DNA from: a virus
Reading direction: 5' to 3' (one strand)
Virus record (IMG/VR): IMGVR_UViG_3300005841_000941
Coordinates: 1-38,095 of that record
Length of the DNA: 38,095 nt
Within the stretch, counting starts at the first letter, position 1. Each line of letters starts with the position of its first letter. Positions 3,589 to 32,030 of the stretch are shown here, piece by piece. The notes under the pieces were generated by a model. The model ran no database searches. It worked only from the letters and a program-made list of their open reading frames with translations, and had not been told where the DNA came from. Both the position numbers and the translations under genes were made by a program.

Positions 3589-3806
3589 CGATGGCTAACC
3601 GGAGGAAGAACCGCAAGCGCCGCCCGAAGACGGGACCGCCCTGGTGGCCCTGCGAGAAGACAGGCAAGCAGGGCTTCGCCTCCAAGCTCGACGCCCTGAC
3701 GGTGCTGGCGAATGCCTCGCGCACGAGGGCGACCCAGCGCACCTACAAGTGCGGGCACTGCGGGCGCTGGCACTTGACGAGCAAGCCCAAGGTCGGGCTG
3801 TCGTGA
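3585..3806 (+). CDS. Small basic zinc-finger-like protein, 73 aa
   Basis: Start ATG 3585 overlaps the previous stop (ATGA); an in-frame ATG at 3591 is equally possible. The N-terminus is very basic (NRRKNRKRRPKTG), followed by a Cys in PPWWPCEKTGK and a C-terminal CGHCGRWHL knuckle. The arrangement (basic arm, short alpha region ALTVLANASRTRATQ, CxxC-x3-H) suggests a nucleic-acid-binding protein. It may belong to a group of small actinophage zinc proteins, but no named family is claimed. Confidence 0.6.
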   Translation: MTMANRRKNRKRRPKTGPPWWPCEKTGKQGFASKLDALTVLANASRTRATQRTYKCGHCGRWHLTSKPKVGLS

Positions 3807-16095: not shown

Positions 16096-16301
16096 GTTAC
16101 CTAGTGACCAGCGGGCATGTAGAGAGCCTGCACAACGGCCGGATGGTCGGCCCCGGCGAAGACGTGACCGGCGTCAACCCCCGCCACCCCCACGACAAGC
16201 GTCTGATCGACCGTGGCGTGCTCGTAAAGCGCGTCACCAAGCGAGCCCGGAAATCCGGGGACAAACCCGCGGCTGAGCCGCAAAAGGAGGAGACCACATG
16301 A
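16092..16301 (+). CDS. Small hypothetical tail-operon protein, 69 aa
   Basis: GTG start overlapping the previous stop (GTGA), and a 4-nt overlap with the sheath gene. It has a short beta-like N-terminus (YLVTSGHVESLHNGRMVGPGEDV), a middle rich in His and Pro (NPRHPHDKRLIDRG) and a basic C-terminus with alternating K/R and E. AAAGGAGGAG within its end is the ribosome site for the sheath gene. Similar small proteins precede the sheath in some myophages. No function is assigned. Confidence 0.6.
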   Translation: MSYLVTSGHVESLHNGRMVGPGEDVTGVNPRHPHDKRLIDRGVLVKRVTKRARKSGDKPAAEPQKEETT

Positions 16302-17713
16302 CCCCGGCTCCGGGAGTTATCTCAACGATTGGCGACGACATCCTCGCCCAAGCGATCGACAGCGACGAGACGCCGTTCGTCGTCGGCCTGTCTCAGAAAG
16401 GCTCGGTCACCGAGCCGACGCTGATCACCTCCAACGCGAAGGTGGAGCCGCTGTTGGGCACCCGCCAGTCGTGGAACCCGACCAACGACTGGTTCGAGAC
16501 CTCGTTCCGCGAGGGTCCGACCGCAGCCGTGGCGCATTACTTCATCCGGGCAGTCGGGCCCGCCCACAAATCGGCCAGCAAAAAACTGGTCGACGGCGTA
16601 ACTGACGTGCTCGAAGCCGTCGCCGTTTCGCCGGGCGAATGGGGCAACGACATCGACGTGGCGATCGTCGCAGGCGTGACCGGCGGGACCTTCCACGTCA
16701 CCGTCAGCTACCTCGACGTACTCAAGGAGAAATCGCCTGAGCTGGCCGACATCGCGGCAGCGGTGGCGTGGGCCTCCTCCTCCTCCTACATCACCCTCAA
16801 AGCCCTCGGTGCAACCGACCCCGATGTCCAGTCGGTTGCACTGGCCGGTGGCGATGACGACCGGGAGAACGTGACGGCGGAAGTCCTCGCGAAAGCACTT
16901 GCGCTCTTCACCGAGGATCTCGGCTTCGGCCCAGTGGCCGCACCCGGCTATACCACCGAAGCCGTCCACGAGGTCGTCATGGCGCACTGCAAGGCGACCA
17001 AGCGGGTCCCGGCCCTCGATGGCGTTGACAGCGCCGACGAGGCGGATCTGATCGGCGATGCGGGCGCGCTGCGCGCGCTCGAAGGCAACAAGCAGACGGC
17101 CGTGCTCGCGCCTTGGGAGATCGCACCGGGCCTGACCGAGGGAACTACGCGGACGGTACCGCCGTCCGCTCGCTTCGTCGGCCAGCTCGCCCGCGTCGGT
17201 CTACAGACGGGGAACCCCAACCAGCCCGCCGCCGGTGACCTGGGCAAGGCGCAGTTCGTGATCGGGCTGACCCAGACCTACGACGAGGAACAGCGCAAAG
17301 CGCTGAACGAGGCCGGAGTCATCGTCTCGATCATCGACGAGGGCAAGCCGACCACCTTCGGCTGGCGCACCCTGGCCGATCCGGTTACCGAGAAGGCTTG
17401 GCTTGCCCTCTCCAACGCCCGCACCGCGCTCTTGGCGGCGTCCAAGGCCCGGAAGGTGCTCAAGCGCTACATGTTCAAACAGCTCGACGGTGAGGGTGAG
17501 ACGAGGGGCAAGGCCGAAGGGGCGATCATCAACGAGGTTCACGCGCCCCTACGTGCAGTCCGCGCCCTCTACGCCTCGAGCGTCACGGTCACCCAGGAGA
17601 TCAACCCGGATGACGGGTCGGTCGGGAAGCTGATCGCCAATCAGGTTCTTCAGCCGACCAAGTTCTCCGAGGTGATCGAACTCACCACGGTCGTATCCAA
17701 CGAGTCCGTCTAG
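16298..17713 (+). CDS. Contractile tail sheath protein
   Basis: This 471-aa protein identifies the phage as a myovirus type. The N-terminus APGVISTIGDD and the PFVVGLSQKG strand fit sheath domain I. SPGEWGNDIDVAIV (111-124) is a characteristic sheath segment. The C-terminal part (ARTALLAASKARKVLKRYMF, then VTVTQEINPDDGSVGKLIANQVLQPTKFSEVIELTTVV) matches the conserved end that wraps the tube. AAAGGAGGAG lies 8 nt before ATG. The length is near the family norm. It should assemble around the tube protein encoded next. Confidence 0.93.
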   Translation: MTPAPGVISTIGDDILAQAIDSDETPFVVGLSQKGSVTEPTLITSNAKVEPLLGTRQSWNPTNDWFETSFREGPTAAVAHYFIRAVGPAHKSASKKLVDGVTDVLEAVAVSPGEWGNDIDVAIVAGVTGGTFHVTVSYLDVLKEKSPELADIAAAVAWASSSSYITLKALGATDPDVQSVALAGGDDDRENVTAEVLAKALALFTEDLGFGPVAAPGYTTEAVHEVVMAHCKATKRVPALDGVDSADEADLIGDAGALRALEGNKQTAVLAPWEIAPGLTEGTTRTVPPSARFVGQLARVGLQTGNPNQPAAGDLGKAQFVIGLTQTYDEEQRKALNEAGVIVSIIDEGKPTTFGWRTLADPVTEKAWLALSNARTALLAASKARKVLKRYMFKQLDGEGETRGKAEGAIINEVHAPLRAVRALYASSVTVTQEINPDDGSVGKLIANQVLQPTKFSEVIELTTVVSNESV

Positions 17714-17728
17714 CAGGAGGGAACGAGA

Positions 17729-18160
17729 ATGCCAAGTAGCACTCAGCTATCGAATCAGGCGAGCTGCACGCTCACGGTCAACGGCCGCGAGTACTCGTTC
17801 GTCTTCAACAAGCGCGACGGCGGGATGGTCGACTCCGAGGAGTCCAAGACCTTCCCCGGCGGCGGGCGCAAGCAGCGTGCCCATCTCGGGCAGGCAACGG
17901 TCGAGAACGTGACCCTGACGGGCGAGATGGTGCCCGACCGCGATCACGAGGAGATCATCGCGCTGAAGGCGCTGATCGGGTTTGAACCCGAAGCGAGCGT
18001 GGTCGAAAACGCCATCGACGCCAACGGAGTCGCCTACCGGGTCCTCAACACCTGGACGGGCCTGCTCAAGAGCGTCAACACCGGCAACTACGACGCCGGC
18101 TCCAGCGATCCGCGGGAGTTCGAGGTCGAGATCAGCACTCACGGGGAGGTCGGCCCGTGA
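17729..18160 (+). CDS. Tail tube protein
   Basis: A 143-aa protein directly after the sheath gene, with CAGGAGGG ahead of ATG. The strand-rich sequence (SCTLTVNGREYSFVFNKRDGG, TVENVTLTGEMVPDRDHEEI, FEVEISTHGEVG) fits the tube fold shared with type VI secretion Hcp and phage gp19-like proteins. Size and position agree. The product probably forms the inner tube through which DNA is injected. The following gene overlaps by 4 nt. Confidence 0.85.
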   Translation: MPSSTQLSNQASCTLTVNGREYSFVFNKRDGGMVDSEESKTFPGGGRKQRAHLGQATVENVTLTGEMVPDRDHEEIIALKALIGFEPEASVVENAIDANGVAYRVLNTWTGLLKSVNTGNYDAGSSDPREFEVEISTHGEVGP

Positions 18161-18914: not shown

Positions 18915-21215
18915 ATGGCTGTACGGGCGAACTCGGTTGACGTTCGGCTGCGACTCCGCGGCCAGCGCCAGTTCAAGCGCGAAGTCAGCGAATCAACGGC
19001 GACCCTTGAGGCGATGGGCCTGCGCGGTGCGAAAGCGCTGGGCAGGTTTGCCGCTGCCGGTCAACGGATGAAGGACTTCGGCAAGACGTGGTCTCGCCAC
19101 GTCTCCCTGCCCCTCGCCATCGGGGGCGGGCTCGCGGTCAAGGCAGCAATCGACTGGGAATCAGCCTTTGCCGGCGTTCGCAAGACGGTCGCCGCCACGC
19201 CTCAGCAGTTCAAGGAGCTGGAAGGCGGGCTGCGGTCAATGTCGACGCATATCCCGGTCGCGGCCAACGAGCTCGCCGAAATCGCCGAGGCGGCGGGTCA
19301 GCTGGGGATCAAGCGGCAGGCCATCCTCGGCTTCACTCGCACTGTCGCCGACCTCGGTGTAGCGACGAATCTCGCCGGGGAGGAAGGCGCGTCGACCCTC
19401 GCCCGCTTCGCCAACATCACCCAGATGCCCCAGTCGCAGTTCGATCGGCTGGGGTCGACGATCGTGGCGCTCGGCAACGCCGGCGCCTCGACCGAGAAGG
19501 ACATCGCTTCGATGGGGTTGCGCCTCGCTGCCGCCGGCAACTTCGTCGGGATGTCCGAGGCGCAGATCCTCGGCTTTGCCAACGCCCTGTCCTCCGTGGG
19601 GATCGAGGCCGAGGCGGGTGGCACGTCGATGTCGCAGGTCTTCAAGTCGATTAACTCGGCGGTCTCCGGCGGCGGCAAGGAACTCGAAAACTTCGCAGCA
19701 GTCGCCGGGCTCTCTTCCGGCCAGTTCGCCAAAGCGTGGAAAAAGGACGCGGCCAGCGCGACCGTGACTTGGGTCGAAGGCCTCTCGCGGCTTAAGAAAG
19801 AGGGGAAGGATGTCCCTTCGTTGCTCAACGAGCTGAGCCCAAAGCTACGCGGCTCGCGGGTGCAGGACACCCTTCTACGGGCTTCGGGTGCCGGGAAGCT
19901 GCTGCGGCAAAGCCTCGGCCTGGGGGCGAAGTCCTGGCGGGAAAACAACGCGCTCACCGAAGAGGCGAGCAAGCGCTACAAGACGGTCGCCTCGAAACTG
20001 CAGATCCTCAAGAATCAGGTCGTCGACCTGGGGGTCACGATCGGCCAGGAACTACTTCCTCCGCTGATCGACTTCGTGGAGTTCGCCGGGCCCAAGATCG
20101 CTGGCGCAGCCAAAGCCTTCGGCAAGCTCTCCAAGCCCGTGAAAACTGCGGTCATCGGGACGGCAGCGTTCGCGATTGCGCTCGGCCCGCTCTCGACGGC
20201 GATGGGCTTCTTCGCCGGTGGTGTTGGTCGGACGATCATCGGCCTGGCGAAGTTCATTCGCTTCGTGCAGGGCTTCCGCGCCCTGGCGGCGGGGGTGGGT
20301 GCTCTCAACGCGCTGAAAATCGCGATGGCGGGCTTCGGGCTCACCTTGCGCGGAGTGATGATGACGACCGGGATCGGCCTGGCGATCACCGCGATCATCC
20401 TCCTCAACGAAAAGTTCCACTTCCTCGGCCCGACGATCGAGTGGGTGACCAACGCGCTCGGCACCGCCTTCGACTGGATCAAGGGCGCGGTCGGATCGGT
20501 GATCGGCTTCGTCAAGGCGAACTGGCCGCTGCTCGTCGGCGCTCTCCTCGGCCCGCTGGGGCTCGCGGTTGCACTCGTGATCACGCACTGGAGTTCGATC
20601 AAGAAGGCTGTCTCCGGCGCCGTGCAGTCGGTGCTCGGGTTCGTCAAGTCTCACTGGAAGACGATCATCGCGATCCTGGGCGGGCCCTTGGGCATCGCCG
20701 TGAAGCTGGTCCTTGACCGATGGGGGCAGATCAAGGCTGCCGCCTCGAGCGTGGTGAGTTGGGTGATCGGCAAGTGGAGGGGCATGATCGCGTTCTTCAC
20801 CAGCCTCCCCGGCCGGCTGCGCGCAGTCGGCAAGGACATCTTCGGCTTCATCAAGGAGGGCTTTCGCTCAGCGATCAACTGGGTGATCGACAAGTGGAAC
20901 AGCCTTGAGTTCCGAGTCCCAAAGATCGACCCTCCGGGTCCGGGCTCATTCGGAGGGTTCGCCATCGGGGTGCCTGATATCCCGCGGCTCGCGGGGGGCG
21001 GCAACATCGCTCGCAGCGGCGTCGTCGAAGTCGGCGAGCGCGGTCCCGAGGTGTTGCAGCTCCCGACCGCCGCCCGTGTGACCCCGCTCGACCCGCGTCC
21101 CCTTTCACTCCCAGGCAGGGGCAAGCAGGAGATCAGGGTCCCTGTCCAGATCGGGGCAAGGCAGGTCGCCGAAGCCGTTGCCGAGGTCGCCGAGGACGAC
21201 GCAGCGACCGCATGA
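18915..21215 (+). CDS. Tail tape measure protein
   Basis: A 766-aa protein that sets tail length. It starts directly after the frameshift-product stop. The N-terminal helical part and the segment SAFAGVRKTVAATPQQFKELEGGLRSMS to ALSSVGIEAEAGGTSMSQVFKSI belong to the TP901/Mu-like tape-measure core. Several hydrophobic stretches (AVIGTAAFAIALGPLSTAMGFFAGG; GIGLAITAIILL; LLVGALLGPLGLAVALVI) could insert into the host membrane at DNA entry. Two related Trp-rich repeats (ANWPLLVGALLGPLGLAV and SHWKTIIAILGGPLGIAV) follow. At about 450 bases per 15 nm it implies a tail of roughly 110 nm, if the usual scaling holds. Confidence 0.92.
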   Translation: MAVRANSVDVRLRLRGQRQFKREVSESTATLEAMGLRGAKALGRFAAAGQRMKDFGKTWSRHVSLPLAIGGGLAVKAAIDWESAFAGVRKTVAATPQQFKELEGGLRSMSTHIPVAANELAEIAEAAGQLGIKRQAILGFTRTVADLGVATNLAGEEGASTLARFANITQMPQSQFDRLGSTIVALGNAGASTEKDIASMGLRLAAAGNFVGMSEAQILGFANALSSVGIEAEAGGTSMSQVFKSINSAVSGGGKELENFAAVAGLSSGQFAKAWKKDAASATVTWVEGLSRLKKEGKDVPSLLNELSPKLRGSRVQDTLLRASGAGKLLRQSLGLGAKSWRENNALTEEASKRYKTVASKLQILKNQVVDLGVTIGQELLPPLIDFVEFAGPKIAGAAKAFGKLSKPVKTAVIGTAAFAIALGPLSTAMGFFAGGVGRTIIGLAKFIRFVQGFRALAAGVGALNALKIAMAGFGLTLRGVMMTTGIGLAITAIILLNEKFHFLGPTIEWVTNALGTAFDWIKGAVGSVIGFVKANWPLLVGALLGPLGLAVALVITHWSSIKKAVSGAVQSVLGFVKSHWKTIIAILGGPLGIAVKLVLDRWGQIKAAASSVVSWVIGKWRGMIAFFTSLPGRLRAVGKDIFGFIKEGFRSAINWVIDKWNSLEFRVPKIDPPGPGSFGGFAIGVPDIPRLAGGGNIARSGVVEVGERGPEVLQLPTAARVTPLDPRPLSLPGRGKQEIRVPVQIGARQVAEAVAEVAEDDAATA

Positions 21216-21856
21216 AGTACCTACGGCTGGTCTGCGCCGATCCCAAGGTCGACATCAAGGTCCAGATGGGCGATGGTCCGGCGACGCCGACTGCCGGTGT
21301 CGCCGGGTGGGAAGTCACCCCCCGCGCCGGGGGGCGCCGGGGAATCACCACTCGTACTAGCCCGCCACCCTTCCAACAGGACGTGCCGATCTACCTCAAC
21401 GGGCTGGCGCAGGGCAACTCCGTGCAGCGCCAGCTCGACCAGATCCTCAGCCTCGGCGAACCGGGCGCCCAGCCGTTCAAGGCCATTGGTCCCATTCACC
21501 GTGGCGACGGGCGCCTCTGGGTCTTCGGCGGCGAGCCTGACTACGGGGAAGCGATCCGCGATGACGACGAGGACAGCACGCTGCTGCGCCAGCGCCTGAC
21601 CTTGAAGCTGCTGCTGTACCAGCGTCCCGATGTCGTCAAGGAGCGTCGTCGCCGCGGCAGGGGACGCGGTGGAGGCGGGAAGGTCGCACAGAACGTCGCG
21701 GTCGGCGGCACCTACACCACGCGCAAAGGGGACACGCTTCAGTCGATCGCCGCGGAGCTTTACAACGACTGGAGAGAGTGGCAGTCGATCGGCAACAAGA
21801 ACGGCCTCAGTGACCCGACCCGCAAGCTCCCGCCCGGCAAGGTCTTGAAGCTGTGA
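21212..21856 (+). CDS. LysM-domain baseplate/tail protein, 214 aa
   Basis: ATG 21212 overlaps the tape-measure stop (ATGA). The first 140 residues are a compact beta-containing domain (YLRLVCADPKVDIKVQM, VPIYLNGLAQGNSVQRQLDQILSLG, GRLWVFGGEPDYGEAI). A glycine/arginine-rich hinge (RRRRGRGRGGGGK) leads to a C-terminal LysM (about 165-214: GGTYTTRKGDTLQSIAAELYNDWREWQSIGNKNG). In myophages a LysM protein after the tape measure joins the hub to the tube and may hold peptidoglycan. This is a well-supported position and domain call. Confidence 0.85.
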   Translation: MKYLRLVCADPKVDIKVQMGDGPATPTAGVAGWEVTPRAGGRRGITTRTSPPPFQQDVPIYLNGLAQGNSVQRQLDQILSLGEPGAQPFKAIGPIHRGDGRLWVFGGEPDYGEAIRDDDEDSTLLRQRLTLKLLLYQRPDVVKERRRRGRGRGGGGKVAQNVAVGGTYTTRKGDTLQSIAAELYNDWREWQSIGNKNGLSDPTRKLPPGKVLKL

Positions 21857-23787
21857 GCCCCGCGGTCGCCAACGCAAAAGCGATCCCGGACCGCCTGCAG
21901 GGACATACCTCAGACTTCGAGCACCTCACCCTTCGCGACGGCCGCAGCGTCGCCATCGAGATAGGCGGCGCGATGCTGCCAACGCCGACGCTCAAGCGCA
22001 CCCTCGGCGGCGGCTCGACGATCGCCGCCGACCTGCGCGACGAGTCTCTGGATCTGCTCGACGTCGCGCTGCTCTCCGAAGACTGGAACGCCGAGATCGA
22101 CGGGCTCGAGTTCACCTACCTCGGGACCAAGAAGGCCGCGACGACTTTCAGCATCGCCTTCGAGGAACGCGCGATCAATGTGCTTCGCCAGCTAAAGGGC
22201 CCGAAGAAGGTCGCTGCCCGCCGCGGCCAGCCCGACGAAGTCACGCGGGCGGAGTTCGTGATCAGCCTCATCCGAGAGGCCAAACCGAAGATCCCCTACT
22301 ACTGCCCCCAGCTCCACGAAAAGCAGCCGATCAGAAGCCGAGAGCAGGGCAAGGCGGCGAAGGAAGACGCGAAGGCGAACCGCGACCACGGCGTCGGCGA
22401 CGTCGATGGTCTGACGGTAAAGGGCAAGGACGCGACTTCGGCGCAGGTCGACATCGGCGACAGGGCTCTGCGAACGGCTGAGTCCTATTCGTCACCTCCA
22501 CCGGTGGTGCTGGCGATGATGGAGGCCTTGATTGTTGAGTCCGGCCTGGGGGCCTTCTCAAGCAACTACATGCAGATTGAACCCGAGTCTGTCTCCGGTT
22601 TCAGTGGGAACCCCAACGATCTCGAGGAAGCCGTTACCGGGTTTCTCAAGGGCTACGAATCGACCTCCACCGGAGCGCTCGCCTACTTCCGCCAGCACCC
22701 CGACGCAAAGCCGCACGAGATTGCCCAGGCTGTACAGCGCTCAAGTGCTGGCGACCCCAGCAACGGCGCCGGCAACTATGGGCCCTGGGAGAAAGAGGCG
22801 GCGGAGTGGGCAGACGCCTTCAGGGGTGGGCTTGCCGGCGAGGAAGTCACGACCGAGCCCTTCTCCTTCGAGGTCGGCAAAGACGAGAACTACTGGACCG
22901 CCATCAAGCGGCTTGCCAAGGACGTCAACTGGCGCGCATTCTTTGTCGCCGGCCGCTTCTTTTTCATCGACGAGTACGAACTGGCTCGCGGAATGGTGCG
23001 GCTGGCGATCAAGCGCGAGCCGGGTTCGCCGACGCCTTCGACGCCGGGCATTGAGGACGTCGACTTCGACTACAACGGCAACAAGCCGATCACCACCGCC
23101 ACGGTGTACGCCTATGCCAAAGAGTGGTCGGTGCCACCTGGGGGAGTAGTGACACTCGCCGGGTACGGCCCCGCAAGCGTTGGGTTCGGAGACGCGCCGC
23201 TGCGTAAAGGCCAGAAGGCGGCGGTCAGCTCCAACCGAAAGGCGAAGACTGGCGAAGGTCGCGGGCGCTATCTGGTCGAGTCAGTCGAAGGGCCGCTCAC
23301 TGGTGACGCCGACGCTCGCCTGCTGACGATCAAGATCCGCAAGCCAACCGCCCCGCTGGGGGAGCCGCCCAACAAGACCTCCTCCTCTGCCGATTCGGAC
23401 ACCTCTACTGCTGGCGACAACCCGAAGGCACAGGAACTGCACGACTGGCTGGAGAGTCAGATCGGCAAGCCCTACGTCTGGGGTGCGGCTGGGCCTGACG
23501 GCTACGACTGCTCAGGCTACGTCTCGGCCGGGTTGATGGAGGTGGGCCTGCTCGGGGCACGTCTGACGACTTCCGGCTTCGTCTCGTGGGGCGAGGCCGG
23601 GGAGGGTGAGTTCATCACCGTCCACGACAAGGCTGGCACCGGCAACCCCCGCACCGAACACGTCATTATCGAGGTGCTGGGCGACCTCTTCGAGTGTGGC
23701 GGGATCAGCGGCGGTGTGGGCAAGCCGAACTACTCGGCCTCGGACCTTGCCGCCTTCTCAACTAAGCGTCATCCGAAGGGGTACTGA
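21853..23787 (+). CDS. Baseplate hub protein with transglycosylase-like and NlpC/P60 domains
   Basis: A 644-aa protein. The first 160 residues and the part after 340 resemble the gpD/gp27-like hub (LSEDWNAEIDGLEFTYLGTK; FSFEVGKDENYWTAIKRLAKDVNWRAFF). Inserted near 215-320 is a possible lytic transglycosylase segment (VVLAMMEALIVESGLG with Glu229, NYMQIEPESV, GFLKGY). The C-terminal 115 residues form an NlpC/P60 peptidase: KPYVWGAAGPDGYDCSGYVS with nucleophile Cys553, and RTEHVIIEV with His603. The enzyme parts should open peptidoglycan during DNA entry. GTG start, 4-nt overlap with the LysM gene. The peptidase call is strong; the transglycosylase call is less sure. Confidence 0.85.
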   Translation: MSPAVANAKAIPDRLQGHTSDFEHLTLRDGRSVAIEIGGAMLPTPTLKRTLGGGSTIAADLRDESLDLLDVALLSEDWNAEIDGLEFTYLGTKKAATTFSIAFEERAINVLRQLKGPKKVAARRGQPDEVTRAEFVISLIREAKPKIPYYCPQLHEKQPIRSREQGKAAKEDAKANRDHGVGDVDGLTVKGKDATSAQVDIGDRALRTAESYSSPPPVVLAMMEALIVESGLGAFSSNYMQIEPESVSGFSGNPNDLEEAVTGFLKGYESTSTGALAYFRQHPDAKPHEIAQAVQRSSAGDPSNGAGNYGPWEKEAAEWADAFRGGLAGEEVTTEPFSFEVGKDENYWTAIKRLAKDVNWRAFFVAGRFFFIDEYELARGMVRLAIKREPGSPTPSTPGIEDVDFDYNGNKPITTATVYAYAKEWSVPPGGVVTLAGYGPASVGFGDAPLRKGQKAAVSSNRKAKTGEGRGRYLVESVEGPLTGDADARLLTIKIRKPTAPLGEPPNKTSSSADSDTSTAGDNPKAQELHDWLESQIGKPYVWGAAGPDGYDCSGYVSAGLMEVGLLGARLTTSGFVSWGEAGEGEFITVHDKAGTGNPRTEHVIIEVLGDLFECGGISGGVGKPNYSASDLAAFSTKRHPKGY

Positions 23788-24080
23788 TGGGCGATCCTGT
23801 CGACCTAACCGCCAGCGCCGTCGCTCTGCCGCCGCCTGAACTGCGCACCGGGGAGATCCTCGACGACGCCGTCGCCGAGGGCCAGTACGTGCGCTGCACG
23901 GTCGAGGCGCTCGACCCTCTGCTCGCCAAGGACCCGATGCCGTGGACGCCGTACGTTGGCGCCGCCGGCATCTTCTACCCGAAGCGCGGTGACCGGGCGC
24001 TGATTGCAGAGCCACTCGACGGGCCCCCGGTGATCTTGCAGTGGTGGCCAAACGCCACCGAACCTGACGTCTCCCTCTAA
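23787..24080 (+). CDS. Baseplate V-like spike/OB-fold protein, 97 aa
   Basis: ATG shares its first base with the hub stop. The sequence is typical of the OB-fold in gpV/gp5-type baseplate proteins: GQYVRCTVEALDPLLA, PYVGAAGIFYPKRGDRALIAEPLDGPPVILQWW. No membrane segment or long C-terminal helix is present, so it may be a short plug beneath the hub, with the needle supplied elsewhere. Its place between hub and gp25-like gene agrees. Confidence 0.7.
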   Translation: MGDPVDLTASAVALPPPELRTGEILDDAVAEGQYVRCTVEALDPLLAKDPMPWTPYVGAAGIFYPKRGDRALIAEPLDGPPVILQWWPNATEPDVSL

Positions 24081-24087
24081 CCCGCCG

Positions 24088-24105
24088 ACCGGCAGCTCTG
24101 CCGGT
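24088..24105. repeat. 18-bp palindrome, copy 2 of ACCGGCAG-N2-CTGCCGGT
   Basis: The short space after the spike gene holds ACCGGCAG-CT-CTGCCGGT, with half-sites identical to those at 4227-4244 and the same 2-bp spacing. As RNA it forms a 7-bp hairpin with a GCTC loop, just upstream of the AAAGGAG ribosome site for the next gene. Confidence 0.6.
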
Positions 24106-24121
24106 GAAAGGAGCGCCTGCG

Positions 24122-25129
24122 GTGGCTACGACCCGTGTGCCCCACTTCTCCTACCCCTTGCGCCTCCAGCCGGGTCGCCTGCAGACCTATGAAGACCTCG
24201 TGGCTGCACTCAACCCGTCGCTCTATTGGCGCCTCGGTGCCACCGGTGGGCTGACCGACAAATCAGGAAACGCCAGAAACGGGACAGCGAGCGGTGCGCC
24301 GACGATCGGCGGTGTCCCTGGCCCGTTGGCAGCCAGGGACAACGACCAGGCGACCGCCTTCAACGGATCGACGCAGTTCGTCACCTCGGCTTACAACCCG
24401 TTCGTTGTCGGGTCGGTTCGGACCTATATGGGGTGGGTCTATCGCGACGACACGAGCGGGAACCATGTGATCTTCAGCGGCAGCGGCCCCACGCGCCCGT
24501 TCCTCTGGCTTGCTGCCGCTACCCAAGATGTCATCTGGCAGGCCAAGCAAGGCGCAGGAAATGCGACGACTTGGACGGCTGCCTGGCCCGGCAACAAACA
24601 GTGGGTCCACGTCGCGGTGGTCTTCGACGACGCGAACAACCTGGCAACCCTCTACCTCAATGGCGCCCTGGTCTCCGCGAAAGCGCATATCAACACCTAC
24701 GAAGGCGCGGGCAATTTCCAGATCGCGGCCTTCACCGGCAGCCTCTTGAAGGGGTCGATGGATGAGGTCGCCGTGTTCGAGCGAGCCCTTGCCGCCGAGG
24801 AGGTCAAGGCGATCTACGACTTCGGGGTCAAGACGGAGCCGACCATCCTCGCCCCCGGCAAGCTCGTGACCGTTGAGCAGGATTCAGCTCGGGAGGTCGA
24901 GGACTGCATTTTCGCGACTATGAGCACGCCGGTCGGGTCGCGGATCGAGGCTCCCGACTTTGGGGCGCCGCGGCGTCTCTTCAGTCAGATGAGCGCCACT
25001 CCGAACGCTGATGCCTACCTCGCCGCCGTCGAACGCGATGAGCCACGAGCTCGGGTCGCAGGACGCGCGGAGGTCGAAGAGATGATCGAACGGATCTCGG
25101 TCCGAAGGGAGGAGGTCGCTGGTGTCTAA
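24122..25129 (+). CDS. Baseplate wedge gp25/W-like protein with inserted LamG domain
   Basis: A 335-aa protein. Residues 6-18 (RVPHFSYPLRLQPGRL) look like the start of a gp25/W baseplate protein. The fold resumes near residue 245 with APGKLVTVEQDSAREVEDCIFATMSTPVGSRIEAPDFG, a clear match to the gp25 core. Between them (about 25-240) is a LamG/concanavalin-like beta-sandwich: LYWRLGATGGLTDKSGNARNG, ATAFNGSTQFV, WVHVAVVFDD, TLYLNGALVSA and MDEVAVFERALAAEEVKAIY. LamG modules commonly bind sugars. GTG 24122 is favoured over GTG 24104 because AAAGGAG lies between them at the right spacing. Confidence 0.8.
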   Translation: MATTRVPHFSYPLRLQPGRLQTYEDLVAALNPSLYWRLGATGGLTDKSGNARNGTASGAPTIGGVPGPLAARDNDQATAFNGSTQFVTSAYNPFVVGSVRTYMGWVYRDDTSGNHVIFSGSGPTRPFLWLAAATQDVIWQAKQGAGNATTWTAAWPGNKQWVHVAVVFDDANNLATLYLNGALVSAKAHINTYEGAGNFQIAAFTGSLLKGSMDEVAVFERALAAEEVKAIYDFGVKTEPTILAPGKLVTVEQDSAREVEDCIFATMSTPVGSRIEAPDFGAPRRLFSQMSATPNADAYLAAVERDEPRARVAGRAEVEEMIERISVRREEVAGV

Positions 25130-26294
25130 CTTCGTCGAGGCGCTTGTAGAAAACGATGCGCTGACGCTCGAGAGCGAAGTTTTCGAAGCGCTTGAAGCAG
25201 CGTTTGAGGGCTGGGTGCCAGCGGAGGGCAACTTGGAGACCTTCCTGACCAAGGCCTTTGCGCGGATCGCGTCGACCAACCGCGAACAGGCAGCCCGAAT
25301 CTCCAAGGAAGCCTTCAAGCGCTTTGGGGAATCGGTCGTCAACGTGCCGCCGGTACAGGCCGCGGCTGCCACCGTGGCCAGCACCTGGACGATGATCGAC
25401 AACGCCGGCTACACGATCCCGGCCGGAACGCTCGTGACCATCACGGCGACAGGCGACGAAGCCTTTGCGTTCCGCACCATCGAAGACGTCACCGTCGAAG
25501 CCACCAAAACGGCGACGAAAGCCGGAGAGGTGATCCTGCAGGCGGTCGAAGCGGGGGAAGACGCCAACGGGCTCACCGACGCGCCGACGCTCGACGACGC
25601 CCTTGCCTTCGTCTCCGTGATCGCCCTCACCGACGCCAGCTCCGGCGGCGTTGACGCCGAGGAGGAAGACGCTTACCTCGACCGCCTGGTCGAGCAACTG
25701 CAACTGCTCTCACTGTCGCTGATCCTCCCCGGCGACTTCGAGATCGACGCCCGCGCCGTTGCCGGTATCGCCCGCGCCCTCTGCCTCCCTGCTTACAACG
25801 CCGAAACCGACAAAGAAGAACCGTTCTGCGTGACGGTGGTACCGATCGACGCTGCGGGCCTGGCCTGTGGCGCCCCCGTCAAGGCTGAGTTGCTGGAGCG
25901 GCAAGAAGAAAAGGTGCCGAGCGGGGTCCTCAACTTCGTCGACGACCCGACCTACACGACGATCGCCGTCGAACTCGAAGTCACCGTGCTGCCCGGCTAC
26001 GAACCAGCCGCTGTCAGCGCCGCCGTCAAAGCCCGGCTGGCGTCTTACTTGTCGCCAGCCAACTGGGGGTTGCCCACTGGCTTTGGTGACGTGTCGAACT
26101 CTGCAGGCTGGGTTCTGAGGAACACCGTTTACCGCAACGAGCTGATCAGTGAGGCTGACCGCGTTGCCGGTCTCGATCGAGTGGTGACCCTCAAGCTCGC
26201 AACCGGAGAAGCGCCCAAAGTTCAGGAGAGCGTGGCGCTCGCTGGCGTCGCACCCTTGACCAAAGCTGGCGAAATCAAAGTGAGCGTCGTGTAG
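25122..26294 (+). CDS. Baseplate J-like protein
   Basis: A 390-aa protein overlapping the gp25-like gene by 8 nt, starting GTG. The N-terminal helices (ARIASTNREQAARISKEAFKRF) lead into AGYTIPAGTLVTITATGDEAFAF and QAVEAGEDANGLTD, the conserved J/gp47 features. TDASSGGVDAEEEDAYLDRLVEQLQ follows, the classical GGxDxExDxxLxxRL pattern. The C-terminal part (ELEVTVLPGYEPAAVSAAVKARLASYL) is the repeated alpha/beta unit. The protein forms the wedge ring with the gp25-like and I-like neighbours. Confidence 0.92.
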   Translation: MSNFVEALVENDALTLESEVFEALEAAFEGWVPAEGNLETFLTKAFARIASTNREQAARISKEAFKRFGESVVNVPPVQAAAATVASTWTMIDNAGYTIPAGTLVTITATGDEAFAFRTIEDVTVEATKTATKAGEVILQAVEAGEDANGLTDAPTLDDALAFVSVIALTDASSGGVDAEEEDAYLDRLVEQLQLLSLSLILPGDFEIDARAVAGIARALCLPAYNAETDKEEPFCVTVVPIDAAGLACGAPVKAELLERQEEKVPSGVLNFVDDPTYTTIAVELEVTVLPGYEPAAVSAAVKARLASYLSPANWGLPTGFGDVSNSAGWVLRNTVYRNELISEADRVAGLDRVVTLKLATGEAPKVQESVALAGVAPLTKAGEIKVSVV

Positions 26295-26951
26295 ATGCCG
26301 ATCGTCATCGACCCGCTCACCCCGCTCGCTGACGATGGCTCGAAGGTCTGGGAGCAGCTTTACGAGGCGCTGGGCTACAACCGTGTGGCCGATCCCGCCA
26401 CTGGCTACGTGCTGCGCCAGTTCTGCGAAGGCTGGTGCGGAACCCTGCAGCCAGTTCATGAGCTGGTCCGCGAACGTGACGATGGACCCCCGTGGGCGAT
26501 CCTCTTCGACGTCGACAACTGCCCGGTCGAATCGCTTCCCTACCTCGCGCAATATGTCGGAGTGGTGCTCACCCCGGAGATGAGCGAGGCCGACATCCGG
26601 GAAGCGATCCGCGAGCCGGTCGGCTGGGCGAGGGGACGGCTGCCGTCAATCAAGCTGGCACCCAAGCCGACCCTTACAGGGACACGACGAGTGATTGTCC
26701 GGTCCCGAACCCCTGTCCCTGGGGCGCACTACATCCGAACACTGGCCTCCGAGACGCCTGAAGTAGCGCGGACCAGCACTCGGCTTCGAGCTGCGGTGCC
26801 GGCGTGGGAGGTACTCGACTACGAAGCGATCGCGGGTGTGAGCTGGAGGGACATCGCCGCCGGCTTCAAAGACTGGGCCGCAGTCAAAGCGGCGTTCACC
26901 GACTGGGCCGACCTGGCCGACACCCTGCCCACCGAGCTGCCCGAACCGTAG
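26295..26951 (+). CDS. Tail protein I-like baseplate component
   Basis: A 218-aa protein immediately after the J gene stop. FDVDNCPVESLPYLAQYVGVVL (about 71-92) is the recognisable gpI-type segment, followed by EADIREAIREPVGWARGRLPSI. The C-terminus is Trp/Asp-rich with a repeated motif (WRDIAAGFKDWAAVKAAFTDWADLADTLP) that may bind the fibre or baseplate. Gene order V, W, J, I, fibre is that of P2-like and many other myophages. No unusual feature apart from the short C-terminal repeats. Confidence 0.82.
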   Translation: MPIVIDPLTPLADDGSKVWEQLYEALGYNRVADPATGYVLRQFCEGWCGTLQPVHELVRERDDGPPWAILFDVDNCPVESLPYLAQYVGVVLTPEMSEADIREAIREPVGWARGRLPSIKLAPKPTLTGTRRVIVRSRTPVPGAHYIRTLASETPEVARTSTRLRAAVPAWEVLDYEAIAGVSWRDIAAGFKDWAAVKAAFTDWADLADTLPTELPEP

Positions 26952-26963
26952 GAGGAAGACCTG

Positions 26964-27758
26964 ATGCCCGAAGAATATGGCGCGCTAAAACTCAAGGTGC
27001 CGAAAGAAAAAGGGGAGGCTCCGAACGGGCCGCAGGCCTTCAAGGACTTCGCCGACAGCATCGCCAAACCGGCCACGGGCGCCACGGGGCAGCTCTTGAT
27101 CGTGCAGAACACTGGGGATGTGGTCTACAAGGCGATCAAAGGCAACGCGACGCTGGCGGAAGACGGGACGCTGAGCATCGCCAACAAAGCGATCGTCGCG
27201 GCCATGATCGCCGATGCTCTCAAGCCATCGGCCGGGGCAGCCGCCGGGACAGAGGCGCTGCGCGCGCTGGGAACAACGGCCTCGACGGCAGCCGCCGGGA
27301 ATGACTCGCGGCTCAGCGACGAACGGACGCCGAAAGCCCTCTCCGCAACCGAAGGCAAGATCGCCGATGGAGCGGTCACGTCCCGGAAGGCAAAACTGAC
27401 GTCAGGTATCGCGTACGGCTCGGGAAGCTTTGCGACCGGCGAAGCTTTTGCGGATATCCCTAACCTCAGCTTTGAAATCACACCCGCCGTTGAATCAATC
27501 CTTCTGGTCGTCGCATCCTTCCGGGTAAAAGCCACCGAAATCAAACAGATTCGATGCACTCTGAGCCTTGACGAAGGGGCCGACGATTCCCACCAAGCCG
27601 CATTCACCGGCCCGACCTCTTCAGTGGTCGAAGCGCAGATCACGCAGACCTACCGATTCACTCTGTCTGCCGCTAAACACACCATCAAAGGGCGCTACAA
27701 ACAGGGCACCATTGATTCGGCCAATAGCTCCTTGCTCTACTTCCTGCACGCTGCGTAA
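26964..27758 (+). CDS. Tail fibre-like protein, 264 aa
   Basis: GTAGGAGGAAG precedes ATG 26964. The first 140 residues have alternating short strands and low complexity (ATGATGQLLIVQNTGDVVYKAIKG, a shaft-like module common in phage fibres, then DGTLSIANKAIVAAMIADAL and LSDERTPKAL). The C-terminal 110 residues are a beta-sandwich-like head (LSFEITPAVESILLVVASFRV, TYRFTLSAAKHTIKGRYKQG). It is the last gene of the tail operon, so it is the best candidate for receptor binding; the LamG protein may share that task. The short shaft suggests a small tip fibre. A strong terminator follows at once. Confidence 0.7.
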   Translation: MPEEYGALKLKVPKEKGEAPNGPQAFKDFADSIAKPATGATGQLLIVQNTGDVVYKAIKGNATLAEDGTLSIANKAIVAAMIADALKPSAGAAAGTEALRALGTTASTAAAGNDSRLSDERTPKALSATEGKIADGAVTSRKAKLTSGIAYGSGSFATGEAFADIPNLSFEITPAVESILLVVASFRVKATEIKQIRCTLSLDEGADDSHQAAFTGPTSSVVEAQITQTYRFTLSAAKHTIKGRYKQGTIDSANSSLLYFLHAA

Positions 27759-31381: not shown

Positions 31382-31440
31382 CCTTCCGCATCAAGCCCGC
31401 CCGGCTTTGCCGGATCTGTCGGGCCGCCCTGTAGTCCAAC

Positions 31441-31454
31441 AGGAGGTCTCCATC
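31441..31454 (+). promoter_or_regulatory. Strong ribosome site facing an ATC codon
   Basis: AGGAGG at 31441-31446 is followed after 5 nt (TCTCC) by ATC at 31452-31454, in frame with the Rpf-domain protein. No ATG, GTG or TTG is available at a usable distance. See the next feature. Confidence 0.5.
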
Positions 31455-32030
31455 AGACGTGTCGCCCTACTCATAGGAGGGGCGCTCGCCGCGCTCGTGC
31501 TGCTGTCGTCGAGCCCGTCGACCGCCCTGCGACCGAGCACCACCATCAACCCCTGCATCCTCTACAGCGACTCCCCGGCCTCGGTGAAGCAGTTCATCGG
31601 CCAGGTCTGGGACGAGTCTCGTTGGCGCCGCGGTGACCCGCCGGCCAGGACGATCGCAGCCTGGAGGCTGAAGCTCCATTGCCTCCCCCCCGGCTGGCAG
31701 AAGAAGCTCAAGCAGCGATGGCGGGACCTGCAGGGAGAGTTCTTCGACCATCGGAAGGCCAAGCGCGCTGCAGCCGCCTACCGCGCCGCGACCACCCCAC
31801 CGGGGGCAGCCGTCCTCGCCGCCATCCGAGAGTGCGAGTCCGGCGGCGACTACTCGATCAACACCGGCAACGGCTTCTACGGCGCCTACCAGTTCACGCT
31901 CTCGACCTGGCGGTCGGTCGGCGGCGCTGGCTACCCGCACGAAGCGCCACCGCACGAGCAGGACGAACGGGCGGCGCGGCTGTACCGAGAAGCCGGTCCC
32001 TCACCCTGGCCCGTCTGCGGCTACCAATAG
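31452..32030 (+). CDS. Rpf/transglycosylase-domain secreted protein
   Basis: A roughly 192-aa protein with a signal peptide (RRVALLIGGALAALVLLSSSPSTA), a Cys-containing middle (NPCILYSDSPASVKQFIGQVWDESRW and RLKLHCLPPGWQKKLKQRW), and a C-terminal resuscitation-promoting-factor type domain. The last begins AAIRECESGGDYSINTGNGFYGAYQFTLSTWRSVGG, with the catalytic Glu in RECESGG, and ends PWPVCGY. Rpf domains cleave peptidoglycan glycan strands and are characteristic of Actinomycetota. The start is uncertain: TTG 31407 has no ribosome site, while ATC 31452 has an ideal one. A terminator follows. Confidence 0.8.
   Translation: MRRVALLIGGALAALVLLSSSPSTALRPSTTINPCILYSDSPASVKQFIGQVWDESRWRRGDPPARTIAAWRLKLHCLPPGWQKKLKQRWRDLQGEFFDHRKAKRAAAAYRAATTPPGAAVLAAIRECESGGDYSINTGNGFYGAYQFTLSTWRSVGGAGYPHEAPPHEQDERAARLYREAGPSPWPVCGYQ

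Follow-up and report, generated by a model that had tools for sequence, protein, structure and literature searches.

In skunaviruses, the classical form of the baseplate protein Dit gains internal carbohydrate-binding inserts, which restore adsorption to exopolysaccharide-bearing hosts (PMC10688798). The resulting evolved Dit (evoDit), found in skunaviruses and other siphophages, is a core baseplate protein whose N- and C-terminal parts align to the short classical form, and which accommodates several different inserts of a carbohydrate-binding type (PMC10688798).

The baseplates of contractile tails contain a different protein, the small and highly conserved gp25, which is the baseplate wedge protein and sheath initiator. 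T4 gp25, the P2-type W/gp25, XM1 gp15, the R-pyocin protein PA0617, Afp9 and Pvc9 all occupy the same place beside the baseplate protein J and share a core that runs from helix 1 to the EPR motif. These plain gp25s are short, at 117 aa for the XM1 homologue and about 103-111 aa for the nearest relatives of the gene described below. gp25 is among the few parts common to contractile phage tails, pyocins, extracellular injection systems and type VI secretion. In its solved fold (2ia7), helices 1-3 are followed by the EPR turn and then by a three-stranded sheet, and the EPR motif is common to gp25-like proteins (PMC3352280). In XM1, from which the stoichiometry of six gp25 copies per baseplate is taken, residues 1-22 of the homologue are not part of the rigid body in which the core moves (PMC10457771). 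In diffocin, the gp25 homologue binds the hub with its N-terminal loop (PMC11329794).

The gp25 analysed here differs from these plain proteins in having ~229 extra residues, a LamG domain, between its arm and helix 1. In this it resembles evoDit: it is a core baseplate protein with an internal insert of a carbohydrate-binding type, its two ends can be aligned with a short classical form (the 106-aa gp25 of a relative, L002), and more than one kind of insert is found at the same place. Here, however, the scaffold is the gp25 of a contractile tail and not Dit, and the inserts are either LamG or an unnamed module.

Results

A gp25 gene with a LamG insert in a contractile-tail locus

The window, by which we mean the whole stretch of DNA that was analysed, is an IMG/VR virus record of 38,095 bp consisting of a single metagenome-derived contig. 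Its open reading frames, together with Pfam and PHROGs matches, reveal a contractile-tail gene order of sheath, tube, tape measure, hub, gp25, J and gpI (Table 1). The gp25 gene is one single ORF, and its closest relative L002, whose J protein is 82% identical to that of the window, keeps the same AAAGGAG ribosome-site region when the sequences are aligned. The 97-aa gene that separates hub from gp25 is, judging by its position, probably a spike/tip protein. Further downstream (31407-32030), the window encodes a protein whose C-terminus carries an Rpf-type transglycosylase-like domain (PF06737, E=4e-23), a hint that the host is an actinobacterium; no prophage relative turned up when GTDB species genomes were scanned with J alignments.

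Table 1 Features of the tail region and of the gp25 gene, in window coordinates.
Feature	Position	Strand	Remarks
Sheath	16298-17713		
Tube	17729-18160		
Tape measure	18915-21215		
LysM protein	21212-21856		
Hub with NlpC/P60	21853-23787		
97-aa gene between hub and gp25	23787..24080	+	L002 counterpart has a beta-helix module
Ribosome-binding site AAAGGAG	24107..24113	+	8 bases ahead of GTG 24122
gp25 with LamG insert, 335 aa, GTG start 24122	24122..25129	+	Only gp25 of the record
Conserved gp25 N-terminal arm VATTRVPHFSYPLRLQPG	24122..24175	+	Homologous to PHFxxPFR of intact relatives (alignments)
Stretch without L002 counterpart	24143..24860	+	718 bp vs 34 bp; net 684 bp = 228 codons, in frame
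PGRLQT boundary peptide	24170..24187	+	
LamG (Laminin_G_3) jelly-roll module, residues 22-239	24185..24838	+	Pfam, AlphaFold2, Foldseek / VIA-align
PGKLVT boundary peptide	24854..24871	+	
Contiguous gp25 globular domain, helix 1 onwards	24857..25126	+	74-76% identical to L002 counterpart
EPR motif, gp25 family	25040..25048	+	Read in sequence
Baseplate J (gp6-like wedge)	25122..26294	+	Overlaps gp25 stop; Pfam Baseplate_J 1.4e-23, phrog_6
Tail_P2_I wedge protein	26295..26951	+	Pfam
Short fibre-like gene	26964-27758		

The ORF is one gp25 bearing a complete LamG domain of ~220 aa. When searched with a profile of plain relatives, it is matched (best E=1.8e-25) as two pieces, the first comprising N-terminal residues and the second running from about residue 246. 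A profile of the intact relatives in turn reaches the solved gp25 chains 2ia7 (E=1.6e-8) and 9gtp (3.5e-8) as well as T4 gp25 (5iw9/5iv5) at E=2e-5, with values of ~1e-3 for each of Afp9, Pvc9 and PA0617. After the LamG domain, PHROGs searches matched phrog_5026 (E=9e-4) and the baseplate wedge family phrog_43 (E=8e-3). The Pfam family GPW_gp25 (PF04965) gives the window protein no score, and relatives mostly fall under its cut-off. gp25 adjoins J in all loci examined.

The initial annotation described the gp25 fold as apparently split, with HFSYPLRL as a first strand cut off from the rest. Because helices 1-3 come first in 2ia7, this peptide is part of the N-terminal arm that precedes helix 1, and not of the sheet. 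It follows from the alignment and the published structures that the insert separates the arm from helix 1, while the alpha/beta core and the EPR motif stay contiguous. In the AlphaFold2 model of the window protein, helices were placed at residues 256-268 and 296-306, and the C-terminal sheet was without confident prediction. In much of the lineage, the region that follows the EPR motif (25049-25126 in the window) is short, at ~26-34 residues, so these phages may build the handshake with the sheath differently.

The inserted module is predicted to be a complete LamG jelly roll

In the 341-aa reading that starts at 24104, residues 89-235 match the Pfam family Laminin_G_3 (PF13385; E=1.7e-17, score 64.4 bits where the curated cut-off is 27.6), covering profile positions 3-151 of 151. 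The structure was predicted by AlphaFold2 from a balanced alignment, as an alignment with too few LamG rows gave a poor model (pLDDT 50). The balanced run reached a pLDDT of 78.6 overall and of about 90 for LamG, where most 10-residue blocks lay at 83-95; values below 50 occurred at residues 1-14 (the arm) and 241-253 (the linker between LamG and core). The LamG model contains about 15 strands arranged as a concanavalin-type jelly roll. The beta-sandwich that the initial annotation expected between residues ~25 and 240 is thus present in the structure predicted for the protein alone. The fold search (Foldseek / VIA-align) covered residues 25-239; matches to LamG took up the VIA-align list, so that the absence of gp25 chains from it is no argument against gp25.

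Among the matches listed by this search, the top solved fold was domain 4 of the arabinanase AbnA (Z about 23-24, at best 23.8 with rmsd 2.0, over 192 residues), a carbohydrate-binding domain solved with arabino-oligosaccharide (PDB 5hon, 5hp6); it is 17% identical to the window LamG, and sharing a fold is not proof of sharing a ligand. Many further lectin-like binding domains nearly equal AbnA domain 4, by fold only. Clostridial neurotoxin binding domains, which also appeared as fold matches, were set aside, the jelly roll alone being shared at 9-18% identity. In base composition (GC 0.63, GC3 0.80), the LamG stretch is like the neighbouring virion genes.

Both its Pfam family and its predicted fold are those of LamG / concanavalin-A-like domains in phage virion proteins and in actinobacterial proteins. 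The other LamGs that we found are free-standing or lie within large phage structural proteins, with L111, described below, the only further case in a gp25. In L073, a free-standing LamG gene stands beside a tailspike-like gene and is 29% identical to the window insert, and a 92-kb viral contig (L151:241-6384) encodes a 2048-residue open frame with about eight tandem LamG domains.

An empty site in the closest relative

The gp25 of L002 is 106 aa long and without interruption (VPKFRVPFQVLAGQLQTVEQDSAREIEQCI). The DNA on both sides of the insert can be aligned between the two genomes by blastn, at 79% for the left flank (window 24024-24142, L002 3589-3708) and at 78% for the right flank (window 24861-25400, L002 3743-4279). 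L069-L073, also close relatives, likewise have a gp25 without the insert, and among known phages of Arthrobacter and Gordonia, those whose J proteins are related also have plain short gp25s. Profiles, predicted structure and the empty-site relative L002 all support the original proposal that a LamG domain was inserted into gp25.

The resemblance of the peptides PGRLQT and PGKLVT at the boundaries had been taken as a possible mark of a duplicated loop. At the protein level this likeness held up, exceeding that of shuffled flanks (p=0.0065), whereas a duplication could not be traced in the DNA: the two copies match at 10/21 bases, and their matches to the L002 empty site are about equal (14/21 and 12/21 bases). 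A recent target-site duplication as the source of the peptides is thus unsupported at the DNA level; it is possible that they derive from an old duplicated target. A PGxLxT-like pair was not seen by eye in L111 or L112, the two further gp25s with an insertion.

Insertions recur at the arm/helix-1 junction

Two scans by J, combined with phage records, yielded 140 loci with gp25 directly before J, which hold 107 distinct gp25 cores. J was the productive query; a scan with the L002 gp25 retrieved L002 alone. Internal insertions were present in three of the 107 distinct gp25s, those of the window, L111 and L112. All lie at the arm/helix-1 junction, and in each the core resumes at profile positions 9-13. 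In L111, a single metagenome-derived contig, the arm reads PHFDMPFRL, and a LamG domain (E=2.5e-17) stands between it and the core; this LamG is 26% identical to that of the window. In L112 (4255-4998), a different module of ~140 aa occupies the same junction. This module has weak, sub-threshold similarity to the phage spike-fibre domain NF048003 (NCBIfam, E=2e-4), and Pfam and PDB searches with it returned no match.

On a tree of J (63 rows, quick method, root not inferred), the insertion trait needs three changes. The window and L002 are sisters (100), L111 and four neighbours fall in another starred group, and L112 forms a long branch beside the window's group, its place being less sure. 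Since an ancestral insertion would require many losses, the simplest reading of these sequence comparisons is that the insertions in the window, L111 and L112 would have been separate events.

Discussion

What might a LamG domain do on gp25? We think it just on the probable side of even that the protein is an 'evolved gp25', in which the inserted LamG would display six modules on the baseplate, for which we infer glycan binding. A contractile-tailed phage has gained a complete LamG at the junction between arm and globular domain of its sole gp25, and the six gp25 copies would then present six exposed LamG modules close to the upper end of the wedges. These could bind a cell-surface or matrix glycan, which may aid adsorption or orientation, as Dit inserts do in siphophages. 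The wedge's signal reaches the sheath by way of gp25, and more speculatively, a ligand bound there might also act on the contraction trigger. An adhesion role is supported by the inserted modules, which are of types known from virion adhesion proteins. The evolved Dit proteins (PMC10688798) make it plausible by analogy that LamG on gp25 would form a built-in surface-recognition layer; the window gp25 may, in other words, work like an evoDit, though it is not one.

There is a serious rival to recognition, which we nevertheless rate as unlikely: that LamG is a structural module, a spacer or cement among the hub, the wedge and the first sheath ring that stabilises the baseplate or tunes contraction, without any glycan being bound. 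As an interaction fold of general use, with protein-protein contacts among its roles, LamG would suit such a function. So would the behaviour of the N-terminal segment in gp25 homologues, which contacts the hub (PMC11329794) or moves apart from the core (PMC10457771); because the diffocin N-terminal loop binds the hub (PMC11329794), LamG may be buried or partly exposed. On the other hand, the nearest relatives (L002, L069-L073) manage without LamG, and the unrelated modules at one junction in L111 and L112 are easier to reconcile with an optional site that is exposed than with a contact that is needed. It is more doubtful still that the arm/core junction is a natural docking site where contractile phages install exchangeable glycan-binding modules time and again, which would put receptor binding on the very protein that links baseplate signal to sheath and might let binding itself help to trigger contraction.

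A neutral or transient insertion, arising by illegitimate recombination and tolerated by the loose arm with no selected role, seems improbable. Such an event would be in keeping with the J tree, on which the insertion is recent (after the L002 split) and found in one contig of its branch, and with the beta-helix insertion of L002 described below, which indicates that the region acquires modules readily. Yet the frame is open over 335 codons, the Laminin_G_3 profile is matched from position 3 to 151 of 151, GC and GC3 are like those of neighbouring virion genes, and 3/3 internal insertions lie at one point. That a metagenome misjoin created a chimeric gene in this one IMG/VR contig is very improbable, given that the frame is exact at both joins, that the flanks are collinear with L002 on either side, and that the architecture recurs in a second contig, L111, whose LamG is just 26% identical. 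An unrelated adhesin with a gp25-like C-terminus is barely credible, even with the absent GPW_gp25 score, for a protein that is the sole gp25-like gene product in the record, is encoded directly before J as in other loci, has a core ~75% identical to the plain 106-aa L002 gp25, and belongs to a family whose profile reaches T4 gp25.

As to novelty, the initial annotation treated the architecture as not known, and the searches bear this out. In 50,697 phage records (tblastn included), no gp25 carrying a LamG or any other module as an insert was found, direct scans of viral contigs found no fused gp25-LamG protein, and the open-access papers searched contain no description of a gp25 with an inserted module; yet the architecture is not solitary, as L111 and L112 have insertions at the same point. 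While a binding module in a core baseplate protein is already known from Dit, the gp25 scaffold and the recurrent junction appear to be new. The recurrence of gp25 insertions suggests an unrecognised route by which phages add binding parts to the core of an injection machine. If this is true, the 'evolved baseplate' principle of Dit would extend to contractile machines, an insertion-tolerant site would be marked in the core protein gp25 by at least three separate events, and there would be an accessible way to ask whether the sheath initiator senses surface contact.

Other modules in the region

In L002 (1524-3645), the counterpart of the 97-aa gene before gp25 has gained a beta-helix / pectate-lyase-like C-terminal module, and the old 3' end of the gene persists downstream as an apparent remnant. 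A 24-bp piece flanks this insert on both sides (1851-1874 and 3589-3612); together with the old 3' end, the pair is the clearest trace of module entry at the locus.

Additional domains are also seen upstream of the gp25 arm. In a lake-virus group (most of L019-L041 and L060-L066), the gp25s are ~220-257 aa long and have an extra domain before the arm, possibly FN3 (Pfam, sub-threshold, E about 0.02). In L014 (2651-4993), the gp25 frame continues upstream for up to 660 residues, which resemble beta-rich virion protein and have a polyproline linker at their end; this may be a long fusion that occurs naturally. Finally, a glycoside hydrolase family 26 domain lies in frame upstream of gp25 in L069 (3046-5001), where it is equally possible that the hydrolase is a separate gene, with gp25 starting from an internal ATG.
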